Source of the DNA: Amphibalanus amphitrite
Taxonomy: Eukaryota > Arthropoda > Thecostraca > Balanomorpha > Balanidae
Reading direction: 5' to 3'
Assembly (NCBI RefSeq): GCF_019059575.1
Contig: NW_024882316.1
Location: forward strand, 62,001-126,000
Length of the DNA: 64,000 bases
Part shown: piece after piece, positions 6,001 through 42,900 of the stretch
How the letters are laid out: every line of letters starts with the position of its first letter
How positions within the stretch are numbered: position 1 is the first letter of the stretch
Notes under the pieces: generated by a model
Databases searched by the model: none
Told to the model about the DNA's origin: nothing
Seen by the model: only the letters and a program-made list of their open reading frames with translations
Made by a program: the position numbers and the translations under genes

Positions 6001-9000
6001 TGAGGTCTGAAGAGCGCCCTGGATGACGGCTCGCTGCCCCTGGACACGCAGGTCCGAAGAACGCTCTGTTGACTCCCCCAGGTCTGAAGAGCGCCCTGTC
6101 CCTCCTCGACAGGTCTGAAGCACACCCTGTTATAGCACCCTGTTTGTCCCCCAGGTCTGAAGGCCGCGCTGTTTGACGAGTCTCTGCCCTCCCCCCCTCC
6201 CTCCCCCCCAGGTCTGAAGGCCGCGCTGTTTGACGAGTCTCTGCCCTCCCCCCCCCCGTCCCTCAGGTCTGAAGGCCGCGCTGTTTGACGAGTCTCTGCG
6301 CGAGGACGCCGTGTACGCGGGCGCGGCGGCCGGCTGTATCGTGCTCCTCATCTGGGTCTACACGGGCTCCCTGCTGGTGACCCTGGCCACCCTGGCCGCC
6401 GTGGCCATCTCGCTCTGCACGGCCTACTTCGTGTACGCCGTGGTGCTGGAGCTGAGCTTCTTTCCGTTCATGAACCTGCTGGCGGCCATCATAGCCATCG
6501 GTGAGTCGGGAGTGAGGGAGTGTGAGTCGGTGGAGTCAGGGATGAGTCGGGAGTGAGGGAGTGTGAGTCGGTGGAGTCAGGGATGAGTCGGGAGTGAGTA
6601 GAGGACGAGTCGAGGGCGAGTCGAGGGCGAGTCGGGGCTAGGAGAGAGGTGATGTGGGGTGACGGGAGCGTCTGAAACATAGTGAGACATTTACTTTGTG
6701 GTGTGGTGGAATTGGATCGTTGATTATATCGGAAAAATGAAGGAACGATGTCAGACTCGCCTTTGAATTATTCAAGCTGTGTGAATTGCAATCCGACCAA
6801 TTTTACAGATAGTATGACACAAAGTATAGTCTTTTCTTATTGCTTTGTTATAATCGACATCACTTACTGTAATTTTGCCGCATGATTATGGTGTTATAGC
6901 CATTACGTCGTGGCGTTTCACATTTGCCCTGCTAATTCCCTAATATGCAGCTGACACCTTCCTATAATCAGCCTGACGCGGCCATTAAGGCGGTCTGTTA
7001 GTCGGATTGAGCGCCGTCCTGACCCGGAGCGCCGGCAACTTGTGCAACCGGATGCCAGCCGAAATTGGCGGCAATAATTCCAGTGTACCTTGATGACTCT
7101 GCGACATTATACGTGCCGACTCCTGCTGGGCAATCTAGCCGGCCAGAGGGCGCATTTAATACTCTCAGGTTTAAATGTCAGCTGGCTGTTTCAATGGTCG
7201 TTACATTAACTTCGGTGCCTAAATTGGCATTTTGCTGGTTAGTTGAGATAGATGGGAGTGAATGACCGGGACCACCAGAAAATACCGGGCTCATTTGATG
7301 TTTGTGTAGGAGGTGAAACATGCTAATGGGGATATCACAATGTCTGCATGGAAATGTTGACTGCCTGCCGCTGCAGCTGTTGCTTCTTTTGCGAAATTCA
7401 TTTCGCATGAGCTCAATAAAGCTAATGTGTATGATCAGTCACGCGCAAACCACATTTATAGCAAAAACAAAACCATATCCCAGCCTGCTGCTCGCCAGGC
7501 TGCGTCTCCGCCCAGCGCTCTCTGTGCACCGGACCGCCGCGGTCCAACTTTGCTGTCCGTGACGTCATGGTCGTGGAACTTCACCTTCCTTTGACGTCAC
7601 CATCCGTAAACCTGAACTTCACTCTCGCCTGACGTCAGCATCTGTGAATGGCTTCACAGACTTCATCATCTAGTGATTGTGAGTGGCGTCACGTACCTAA
7701 CTTTGCCACCCCATAACGTCATACGTTAGCGTCATGATACATTAACGTCACCATCATGTACCGTCACCATCCCGTGACATCACCGTCCGCGCTCGGTCAT
7801 CCTCCCGGTGACCCAGGGTGTCTGTATCAGTGCCGGTGGCGCGTGGGCGGCCAGACCGTCGGTCACGGTCGAACCGAGCTCACGGCGCCGCCCATGCATG
7901 CCGCTTCCATCCGGCGCCGGCCGGGCCGCGATATTGGGGACACCGCGTGCTCCCGTCGGTGGTAGGCTGCCCGTAGACCGAGTTCGGGGAACTTGCGCTG
8001 ATTCAAAGGACGATTATAGCCCGAACGCCGGCGGGTTTGATATGTGAGCGTCCGTTCAAAGCAAATTCTGAACGGGGGCTGAGGAACTGGATGTTGAAAT
8101 GTGGCTGCCAAAGTCCGGTGCTGGGGAAGTGGTGTAGTTACAACAGACTGTTTAGTTTGTCATTCATTTAATATACCCTGGGTTTGTAAAGCCTCATGTA
8201 CTGCTTCATCCGATTAAACACGCCTTTCGCAATAGATATCGTACTGGTTGCGATTGGCTGGTCACTAAAGGCGGTTTTGCGTTAATGCATACTTCAAGTA
8301 TCAGACGCCTTAGGGAATTAATTACTTGCGAAGGGCTTCACCGTATTTCATCAACCCTGCAAACTTCGTTTCCTTACAATTTCCTAAGCAATTTAGTGCA
8401 AACTTTGTTCAATTGAAGTTGTTTTTGTTTTCCGCTCAATGGAACGGGAAGTACAAAGTTTTGTCAACTTGAGACGCTGCGGGAGGCGCAATTGCTCCCG
8501 GTCTCAATCCCTCTGGATCTGCCTGTAAGAAGGCACTAATGCATCGATGACGTTAATCTGAACACACTGGGTACAACAGGTCTAGAAAGTTTATTTAGCA
8601 TTAGTCTCGTAACACCAGTGTCTATTGTCTTCATTCCAGGCGTTGGCGCGGACGACACGTTCATATTCTGCAAGGTGTGGGACCGCTGCAAGTCGGACAA
8701 GAACGCCGGCACGCTGGCCAAGCTGGTGGGTGACTCTCTGCGGCAGGCGGCGCTGAGCATGCTGGTCACCTCGCTGACAACGGCTGCGGCCTTCTTCAGC
8801 AGCTGCGTCAGCCACGTCACCGCCATCGCCTGCTTCAGGTAGGGAATGATGGAGGAACTGATTGCGTCAGTGGTAGTATACTCACATAGCGTCACCGGTG
8901 ACCTTCCGGTAGCATATTGTGTGACTGCTGACTGTGACTGCTAACTGCGTTAAGTACCTAGAATATGGTGTAGGCGCATAATTCTCTAGGTAGGATATGA

Positions 9001-39903: not shown

Positions 39904-42900
39904 ATGGCAGGGAATCTAGCCAAGGCAATAGCATCTGGCTCCCTGAACCTCTCCAAGACCCTCCTCAATGGGAAGTCACCAGCCATTCTTGCCAGGTAAG
40001 GCTTAACAAAAACAAAAACATTGTATCAGAGATGTTTGTGTTTTGTTGTTGCCATGTGCATGACTTTCATAGCTGTACCTTTGGGGACTGGTTAAACATG
40101 CTCATATAACATAGAATTAAGGTTTAGTTCATGTAAGGGTATTTCATTTTGCACATTTTTACACCTAGCAGTTAGCAGTCTCTCATACATTATTGTCAAC
40201 TGAATTTAACAGGAAAGGATCTTTTTATAAGTTCCCAAGCTTCTGACCAAATAAATCTCACCTGAGCTGATCTCTGACCTCTGAGGTCATTGGCTGACAG
40301 AAAGACAGACAGAACTTTATTCCAGACCATACTGATCCATTAAATGCTCTCATGCCATAAAACACACTTGCCTACACCAGCTAAAAACATTCACTAGAGC
40401 CTGCATGACTCATGAGTCATGTCAAGTCAGGTGACATCCATGTCTGCCCTGGTATACATCATTCCCAGCTTTGACCTGCTTGGCTGGTACCTCAAGTTAC
40501 TCATGACTCAAGACTCTTGTTTTTTCACTCTCTTTTGGAAAGACACACTAGTTTAAAAAAAAAACTTGTAGTATTATTTGTGTGTTACTGAGAAGGGATG
40601 AATTTATCCTCAATTATAGCAAAAAGGACACAGCTAAGAAAGTTTCTGCCTGATTGGGCTCTCTTGGTTCTTTAAAAAATTGAAAACCTCTTCTTTACAT
40701 TGTCTCAAATTTTAGATCCAAGAGGAAGATATTATTGTGATTTGTTTATAAATTACTTTCAATTTCAATTCTAGAGACCATCAGAGAAAAAAATCTCCTT
40801 TTCCTCGAGTGATGTCATACATTATCTTTTAATGTTTGTAGTGATAGGAGATTAATTAGTACTCAAGTTTGACTGTGGTGAAGTCTCGCGTCGAAATGTC
40901 ACAGTTCACGTCGCTTCGTTTAGCTGTTGCCTGTTATCCTGTCGTGTTACCATCTCCACCTCCCCCTCCACCCCCCCCCCCCCCCGTACAGCCCGGTGCG
41001 CGGCGTCAAGCGCTGGTACCCAGACGTGTGACCCCCCCCCTCCACCCCCTCCCCCTCACAGCCCGGTGCGCGGCGCCAAGCGCTGGTACCCGGACGCCGC
41101 GTTCATGAAGCCGTTTGAGGGCACCGTCATCACCACCGGTGCAGAAGACGAGGTGGCCTGGCGCCGGCCCGACTTCAACCGGCACGTCTCGCCGGAGGTG
41201 AAGAAGATCCACATGATGCAGCTCAACTTCGGACCGCAGCACCCGGCGGCTCACGGCGTGCTGCGGCTGGTGCTGCAGCTCGAGGGAGAGGTCAGTGGCG
41301 GGACGGGAGAGGGAGAGGGCAGCAGGACAGGACACCAGGAGGGAGAGGTCAGTGGCGCTGGAGGGTCGAGGGGGAGAGGTTAGTGGCGCTGTAGATAGAG
41401 GGGGCAGAGGCGGTGGAGGGAGAGGTCAGTGAAGACTGGCGGGAGAGGTTGATACAAATCACTCAGTGGGGCTGAAGGGGTGAGTTCAGTAGCACTGAAG
41501 AGGTGGATCGGTGTGCATCGATGCTTAGGAGGCTGGGCAAACAAGTGACTAAGCCTTTTATTACTTCTCGGTGAAACGGCTCTGATAGATAAAGATGATT
41601 CGGTCGCAGAGTAACATTTTCTGTATACTTGTCAGTGGTCACATAAGAGTTTTGCTCCAAACAAGCAGGCAGTGACCGCGTTTACTCTCACTCGGTTCCG
41701 AAGTACGTAATCGAGGTGATGTACATTTCACATCCACAGCCGTGGCCCTATCGCTGACCTCCCTGTCTCCCTCTCCATCAGACCGTACTGCGCGCCGACC
41801 CTCACATCGGTCTGCTGCACCGCGGCACAGAGAAGCTCATCGAGTATAAGACGTACACGCAGGCGCTGCCCTACTTCGACCGGCTCGACTACGTCTCGAT
41901 GATGTGTAACGAGCAGGCCTACTCGCTGGCCGTTGAGAAACTGCTCGGTATCGACGTGCCCGAACGTGCCAAGTGGATCCGCAGTGAGTGGGCGGGGTGG
42001 AACATCTGTTTTGGAGAGGCTGTGTTTTGAAAATGAGAGCGTGTGGAATGAATACAAATATTTTCCCGTAATCATTGATAGGTCTGTCGTTCGAATTTTC
42101 CATTTTACAGCGGTTACTTCTTGGCGGGTATAATGACGCGTGAGCGCTTTTGTACGCTTCTCATGATACTACACGAACGTTTGGCTTGCCTCGATTGGGT
42201 TAATTTCTAGTTCCTACAAACTATATTCGCTTGCAATTTTTATTAACGCTTACAAGCAAGACACTTCATTACTGGGGATATGGACGACGTGCCGTTGCTC
42301 GGTTGTCACTGCTAAGCGCTACGTTAACACTCCGCCCCCGCCCCTTCTAGCGATGTTCGCCGAGATCACGCGTCTGCTGAACCACATCATGGGCATCTGC
42401 ACTCACATCCTTGACATCGGCGCGCTGTCGCCCTTCTTCTGGATGTTCGAGGAGCGCGAGAAGATGATGGAGTTCTACGAACGCGTCTCTGGAGCGCGTA
42501 TGCACGCGGCCTACATCCGACCGGGCGGTGTGTCGCAGGTAAGGACGGTGGAACGACGGGGTTTTATGCATGGGCGGCTAATATCGTAGGTCCTGGGACG
42601 GCTGTATAGGGTCGAGGGATGAGGACATCTGGCCGGTCAATTAGTGGCTCGGAGTGGCTTGGGCTGGTATGGTACCGCTGGACCAAGTGTATAAAGCCTG
42701 ACGATTCAAGATAAAAAGCTGTATTGCTATTTTGGGATGAGCGTGGTTTTTAATCAGTCAAAGTGGGCGTGCTTCGAGTGGCCCAGGGCGAGCGGGGTGA
42801 TAGTACCACTCCTCCGTCGTTTGTACTTCTTTTACATTATCTAATTTCCACGCTTTTCATGGGCCTACTCACGCAGCCATACCGACATCAGACTGAGACA

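Follow-up and report, generated by a model that had tools for sequence, protein, structure and literature searches.

Tandem copies of splice junctions in Amphibalanus amphitrite: duplications spanning exon edges and putative spare splice sites

Introduction

A stretch of 64,000 nucleotides of the Amphibalanus amphitrite genome (positions 62001-126000 of contig NW_024882316.1, here C819; hereafter the window) raises the question of how working splice junctions come to lie next to tandem copies of themselves. The first-pass annotation of this DNA had described, in four of its genes, a repetition of the intron end and of the beginning of the following exon upstream of the working exon, and had proposed that a genome-wide mutational process aimed at splice boundaries constantly creates competing splice sites. 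By direct self-comparison of the sequence we have found all four duplicated acceptors; the repeated donors which had been indicated for two of the same exons are present too, and further copies, of donors as well as of acceptors, accompany other genes beyond the window, both on the same contig and elsewhere in the assembly. To judge from the sequence, many genes of this animal thus quite often appear to carry putative spare, competing splice sites by way of junction-spanning tandem copies, sometimes on one haplotype only. Short duplications are thought to be in part the starting point of intron gain, of alternative splice sites and of shifts in exon edges, and fresh ones are seldom caught; a genome with junction copies at several per cent of its predicted acceptors, some of them on a single haplotype, would allow the measurement of their use in splicing, of their rate of decay and of possible hot spots at exon edges.

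Results

Duplicated junctions of the window

The duplicated junctions are collected in Table 1, in which, as in the remaining text, positions follow the window numbering, negative values and values above 64,000 lying in the flanks of C819 beyond the window. The gene names are supported to different degrees. The working head of NDUFS2 exon 2 aligns to complex I 49-kDa chains, which backs the name, and the best matches, named Complex I-49kD, are presumably Drosophila entries. A PP2C domain match at 31731-32576 backs the name PP2C/PPM1A, the exon with edge 25558 being assigned to this gene by the first-pass reading alone. For the remaining named gene, the label disp of the first-pass annotation is accompanied by a sterol-sensing match in the exon 9601-11529 which is below threshold (20.2 bits against a cut-off of 22.3), and we therefore refer to it as disp-like.

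Table 1. Positions of the duplicated splice junctions in the window.
Feature	Positions	Strand	Details
disp-like acceptor array (AG and exon head), seven copies, working one last	6003..6299	+	self-comparison, pattern scan
disp-like exon, donor-side tandem, 41-bp unit, 2.4 copies	6496..6598	+	the 2.4 copies at 6502-6598
178-aa gene, start exon, acceptor duplication	20391..20566	-	copy 98 bp ahead of the working edge 20434 (gene direction)
PP2C (PPM1A), last coding exon, two extra acceptors upstream	25526..25741	-	working edge 25558
NDUFS2 exon 2, acceptor duplication	40975..41096	+	copy 70 bp ahead of the working start 41062
NDUFS2 exon 2, donor copies (GAGAG/GTYAGTG)	41286..41452	+	motif scan

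In the disp-like array, exon starts of the AG/GTYYGAAG type have the A of their AG at 6003, 6050, 6080, 6111, 6153, 6210 and, for the working one, 6265 (exon start 6267); the last three copies have an identical 33-bp exon head and are spaced by 57 and 55 bp, and the four outer ones are decayed. The copy in the 178-aa gene matches the working exon at 40 of 44 exon bases, the acceptor copy of NDUFS2 exon 2 is identical to the working one at 33 of 35 positions, and the two PP2C copies lie 76 bp (with one gap) and 159 bp upstream of the edge. On the donor side of NDUFS2 exon 2, the working site at 41286 is followed by copies at 41343, 41374 and 41420 and by a weaker one at 41441. The four acceptors of the window have local-copy scores of 23.5-33, and since a score of 20 is reached by only 1.4% and 1.6% of random noncoding 40-mers of C819 (two samples of 4,000), these duplications exceed what is expected by chance.

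Comparison with an apparent second haplotype

The region 90001-200000 of a further contig, C337, parallels the window and is apparently its second haplotype. The identity between the two is mostly 90-98% (80-89% in a few pieces) over about 3.3-25 kb, 98.3% over 25.1-30.3 kb and 99.6-99.96% in long pieces beyond about 31 kb. Within 3,344-25,000, where 86% of the exon and 78% of the noncoding sequence is alignable, the contigs differ at 119 of 3,249 aligned exon bases (3.7%) and at 671 of 13,783 aligned noncoding bases (4.9%), indels being commoner in the latter. A model of homology islands, in which the haplotypes stop aligning at exon edges, was discarded on these figures, exon and alignable intron divergence being alike.

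The copy in the 178-aa gene is absent on C337, where the same acceptor is present, and the donor-side array of the disp-like exon is there short by about one 41-bp unit, as inferred from a 40-base alignment gap. The disp-like acceptor array on C337 has, by eye, three inner and at least two outer copies, one decayed copy being common to both contigs, and the sequence further upstream differs between them. The PP2C and NDUFS2 copies are found on C337 as well as on the window contig, with no difference in copy number, the NDUFS2 parts of the two contigs being 99.8% identical and so giving no independent support. For the nearer of the copies at locus L052, contigs C24 and C232 are identical across their overlap, which is uninformative for a comparison of alleles. 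Because copies differ in number between the window contig and C337, the duplicated junctions are very probably real and still changing, as judged from the assembled sequences, and the earlier proposal of a continuing process agrees with the differences seen at the 178-aa acceptor and at the disp-like donor-side unit.

Other differences between the two contigs were noted along the alignment. Near 31 kb the identity climbs to about 99.9%, as if the contigs had a recent shared ancestor there or one haplotype had been assembled twice. Two stretches of the window are absent on C337: one of about 0.8 kb (30260-31070), with inverted GAGGCCTCTTGCACCAAA-like ends between CTCAG arrays, which looks like a heterozygous mobile-element insertion, and one of about 1.9 kb (35731-37594) that includes 193-bp and 18-bp tandem arrays. 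A stretch of about 1.2 kb (17324-18521), with GGGGTCGGATCCGACCCC-like palindromic stretches near both ends, has no counterpart in the alignment to C337. Conversely, about 22 kb of C337 (100431-122786, comprising all of L011 and parts of L010 and L012), with predicted exons and coding-like tandem repeats, is missing from C819 at 13.16 kb of the window. The window also holds an inverted repeat (hairpin) of about 180 bp at 16231-16408, with a similar piece on C819 at 112842-113025, and a 128-bp satellite of 6.7 copies at 46285-47137 (TRF).

Recurrence in other genes

Exons were predicted with a purpose-written exon finder, trained on C819 and run on 154 kb of this contig and on short loci from other contigs of the assembly (807,550,619 bases in 2,644 contigs); its errors included the donor of the disp-like exon and the acceptor of L071, the latter being set right by eye. 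The other contigs were sampled by 40 stretches (L029-L068) around PF00271 helicase exons, chosen from 128 matches with a preference for short open frames and with the intention of taking one per pair (L055 and L056 look paired), and by two chaperonin genes (L070, L071) out of 101 matches. A copy was counted when a local-copy score of at least 15 was obtained within 400 bp of a predicted splice site.

With the window included, 12 of the 175 acceptors predicted and 6 of the 168 donors have a copy nearby, the acceptor of L063 and the donor at 41347 being unreliable among these 18. In the flanks of C819, copies accompany the acceptors at -34335, -5302, 70402 and 75324 and the donors at 68962, 71202, 71944 and 75188, and duplicated edges occur on other contigs at L052, L053, L059 and L071, L053 having four extra donor copies. 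The recurrence which had been presumed from four genes is thus borne out in other genes. Within L029-L048 and L003-L008, no acceptor or donor scored 14 or more. Tandem duplications of like kind are also present away from exon edges.

Anatomy of the copies

Among the reliable cases, the period measured to the nearest copy ranges from 55 to 129 bp; the disp-like donor-side unit has 41 bp. Eight acceptor cases were laid out, and in all eight an exon part of 33-46 bases is clearly copied; the homology extends clearly into the intron in four (-5302, the 178-aa gene, L071 and L052) and is of low complexity or weak in the other four. At -5302, 47 bp of intron upstream of the AG are duplicated in register with the 33-bp exon part, and because the intron part is shared as well, a segment spanning the junction is here truly duplicated in tandem. 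The identity of the exon parts ranges from 0.73 to 1.0. In three of the eight cases a short identity was recognized by eye at the join, namely TGTG (178-aa gene), CACCCkTACC at 9 of 10 positions (-5302) and ATC (L059), as would be expected from microhomology-guided template switching or slippage.

Slippage at runs of G or C, which had been suggested as a cause, was compared with the composition of the sites, the donor at 41347 and the acceptor of L063 being excluded as unreliable. At acceptors with copies the C runs are longer than at other acceptors (median 5 versus 3, 11 versus 164 sites, p 0.006) and the pyrimidine content is higher (p 0.004), in agreement with the suggestion. The G runs of donors are no longer when copies are present, in a sample of few such donors (5 versus 163 sites, p 0.88), and runs distant from exons are rarely in duplications: noncoding G/C runs of at least 7 on C819 lie within duplications in 5 of 13 cases near predicted edges versus 1 of 42 far away. 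As a general cause, slippage at G/C runs is thus weakly supported. Recursive or dual-specific splice sites were also set aside, the exon head starting with GT in only 3 of the 11 acceptors having reliable copies (by eye).

Splice signals and coding changes

The AG or GT is kept in 23 of 24 copies aligned within 6 bases of the edge, which under uniform decay has a probability of about 0.07 and is no significant sign that the splice sites of the copies are maintained. These 24 copies derive from only 15 sites, and they include the gapped copy at 75188 (period 212), which has no GT and without which the count becomes 23 of 23 with a probability of 0.012; four more copies (41347, 75324 with period 203, L063 and L071), aligned only from a point 12-29 bases away from the called edge, were excluded. 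Since most of those sampled keep their AG or GT, the copies are potential competing splice sites; the earlier claim that competing sites are being made holds to this extent, as putative competitors recognized from their sequence.

Between copies and exons we counted 36 synonymous and 28 non-synonymous differences, where about 44% would be expected to be synonymous if the exon alone were constrained (p 0.03). Without the copy at the 71202 donor the excess vanishes (p 0.25), and a general excess of silent differences was therefore dropped as depending on this single copy, which differs from the 60-base exon end at 9 sites, all nine synonymous. At the same locus (C819 71101-71265, L024; by eye) the frame meets a stop just past the first donor, and therefore use of the second donor would give no longer protein.

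Tests for a preference for exon edges

As a null for the duplication events outside the window, their positions were drawn anew at random 1,000 times on sequence matched in GC and complexity. Contact with an exon edge is seen for ten of 17 events, where 5.2 would be expected (p 0.007); in the flanks of C819 alone the count is 5 of 8 against 1.9 (p 0.013), and among events of at least 93% identity it is 6 of 9 against 2.9 (p 0.016), the expectation for the whole set without GC matching being 4.1 (p 0.002). The enrichment at the level of events thus amounts to about 2-2.5 fold after matching for composition and complexity. Wholly exonic events, as well as L056, which looks like the other allele of L055, had been dropped from this set; among the ten edge-touching events L047, L055 and L057 are automatic calls unconfirmed by eye, and three cases that are evident on visual inspection (L052, L071 and the donor at 71202) were, conversely, scored as not touching an edge. 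Earlier figures of 11 of 20 against 2.6 and, with GC matching and two more loci, 11 of 22 against 4.6 shrank to the present ones under the stricter null, and a strong targeting of splice edges was abandoned.

A test per position gave a different picture. Outside the window, 5 of 131 acceptor 40-mers have a local copy; among intron positions lying 200-600 bases upstream the figure is 8 of 455 (p 0.14). For donors it is 2 of 128, compared with 15 of 431 at positions lying 160-560 bases downstream in the intron (p 0.93). With the window included, the corresponding values are 10 of 176 versus 15 of 636 (p 0.03) for acceptors and 7 of 176 versus 18 of 618 (p 0.31) for donors, the pattern having first been noticed in the window. 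Long satellites weigh heavily in these per-position counts, but not in the counts of events. Of the proposed process aimed at splice boundaries there stands, then, the enrichment of events, whereas the per-position excess outside the window is non-significant for acceptors and absent for donors: a modest preference for exon edges is likely, and a splice-directed mutational process is unproven.

Discussion

Origin of the duplicated junctions

We consider it probable that these are ordinary short tandem duplications which span exon edges by chance and are tolerated and preserved there, with a modest preference for edges. From the observations above we infer the molecular step, the copy that is spliced and the selective reasons as follows. 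A segment comprising the intron end and the first 33-46 exon bases, or its mirror image at donors, would be copied in head-to-tail orientation, template switching or slippage guided by microhomology being the probable mechanism. An acceptor duplication would be tolerated because one intact junction survives, the gene still working if the copy adjacent to the exon is spliced; the other copy would persist as an intronic decoy or alternative site undergoing slow decay, and some sites would expand into arrays. Duplications lying wholly within exons would usually be purged by selection, and those at edges would stay recognizable as selection holds the exon copy. This account is consistent with the in-register exon and intron parts at -5302, the 178-aa gene, L071 and L052, with the copies that are absent or shorter on the other haplotype and with the wide range of divergence among copies; the like duplications away from edges agree with a general process. 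Several observations weigh against it. The enrichment at edges survives matching for GC and complexity, and it is also seen among events of at least 93% identity, which is a difficulty because the slower decay of exon copies should not enrich young events. Moreover, the nine changes at 71202 are silent without exception, which neutral decay does not predict, and the join is undefinable in five of the eight acceptor cases laid out.

The enrichment of events outside the window (p 0.002-0.007), the longer C runs and higher pyrimidine content of acceptors with copies, and the abundance of G/C runs in duplications near edges would be accounted for if mutation were directed at the splice boundaries themselves, for example by slippage or template switching where acceptors have C-rich tracts and donors have purine-rich sides. 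We regard such a directed process as rather unlikely, in view of the lack of longer G runs at donors (5 sites only), of per-position rates without significant excess, and of the fact that C runs may be a consequence of duplication and not its cause. It is very improbable that selection maintains the copies as functional alternative or decoy splice sites which tune isoforms or expression. The nearly general retention of AG or GT, slightly above uniform decay, points in this direction, as do the four extra donor copies of L053 and the four decayed outer copies of the disp-like array, which retain AGGTCTGAAG or a one-base variant, this being, however, the motif used to find them; but the retention is non-significant and comes from few sites, many periods (55, 70, 76, 98, 115) are not multiples of three, so that use of the copies would shift the frame, in-frame stops lie (by eye) in the stretches between copies at NDUFS2 and at the nearest PP2C copy, and two units are absent from the other haplotype.

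If template switching in a strongly heterozygous genome drew the copies from a diverged allele or paralogue, they would differ from the outset mostly at silent sites. The divergence of the haplotype contigs, together with the excess of synonymous differences and the nine of nine at 71202, is in accordance with this, as is the fourfold-site diversity of about 9% reported for one gene of the barnacle Balanus improvisus (PMC8270832). The excess is, however, lost without 71202, nine silent changes in 60 bp exceed the allelic divergence, and the copy in the 178-aa gene agrees with neither haplotype at the sites that differ; we give such templating as little credit as selection of the copies. An artefact of assembly or polishing where two haplotypes stop aligning is less probable still. 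The genome is heterozygous and both haplotypes are apparently assembled, which would provide the occasion, but the disp-like array, including its shared decayed outer copy, stands on both contigs in spite of a divergence of about 6% in that region, and the PP2C copies likewise occur on each of them. Consensus errors would hardly look like arrays with five to seven copies, a gradation of decay such as the disp-like array shows, or a duplication that takes in intron sequence; contig parts of 99.8-99.9% identity, NDUFS2 included, are no independent support against an artefact.

Tentatively, this genome may have a process of exon-edge duplication by which junctions are copied again and again into adjacent introns, each time on one haplotype; a spare copy would then be present at several per cent of all splice sites, a possibility which we rate well below an even chance. 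Such a process would provide a large heterozygous stock of competing splice sites, selectable for the lengthening of introns, for shifts of exon edges and for new isoforms.

Relation to known systems

The first-pass annotation knew of no named description of the phenomenon, which cannot be maintained for its kind: human segmental duplications and paralogues are described as carrying internal tandem repeats of variable number across exon-intron boundaries (PMC2812944), and tandem genomic duplication is described as a genuine route of intron gain (review PMC3443670; Drosophila cases PMC2891723). Among the open-access papers listed, judged by titles and beginnings of abstracts, we found no report of a genome-wide excess of duplicated existing junctions, which is weak evidence of absence. 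Intron gain by tandem duplication of an AGGT-bearing exon segment (PMC3443670, PMC2891723) resembles the present cases in that a short duplication within a gene gives rise to two competing splice signals with a spliceable or silent spacer; it differs in that here an existing junction is apparently duplicated, the intron growing by one unit and gaining a spare acceptor or donor, with no new intron. For the 178-aa gene, C337 argues against intron gain, having the same acceptor without the copy, and the other cases are judged from the predicted gene structure. Human introns derived from tandem arrays (Zhuo et al. 2007) are likewise comparable in having such arrays as a source of competing splice sites, and that work reportedly concerned new introns and not echoed junctions.

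The human boundary repeats (PMC2812944) share with our cases tandem repeats over an exon-intron boundary that vary in copy number and can alter splicing; they belong to recent primate paralogues with transcript support, whereas here apparently ordinary genes are concerned, with units mostly of 55-130 bp recognized from sequence alone. Dual-specific AGGT sites in tandem repeats (PMC10809524) differ from the present copies in that only the three of eleven acceptors mentioned above have an exon head beginning with GT, and have in common with them the formation of arrays of splice signals, some of the copies described here being of the AG/GT type.

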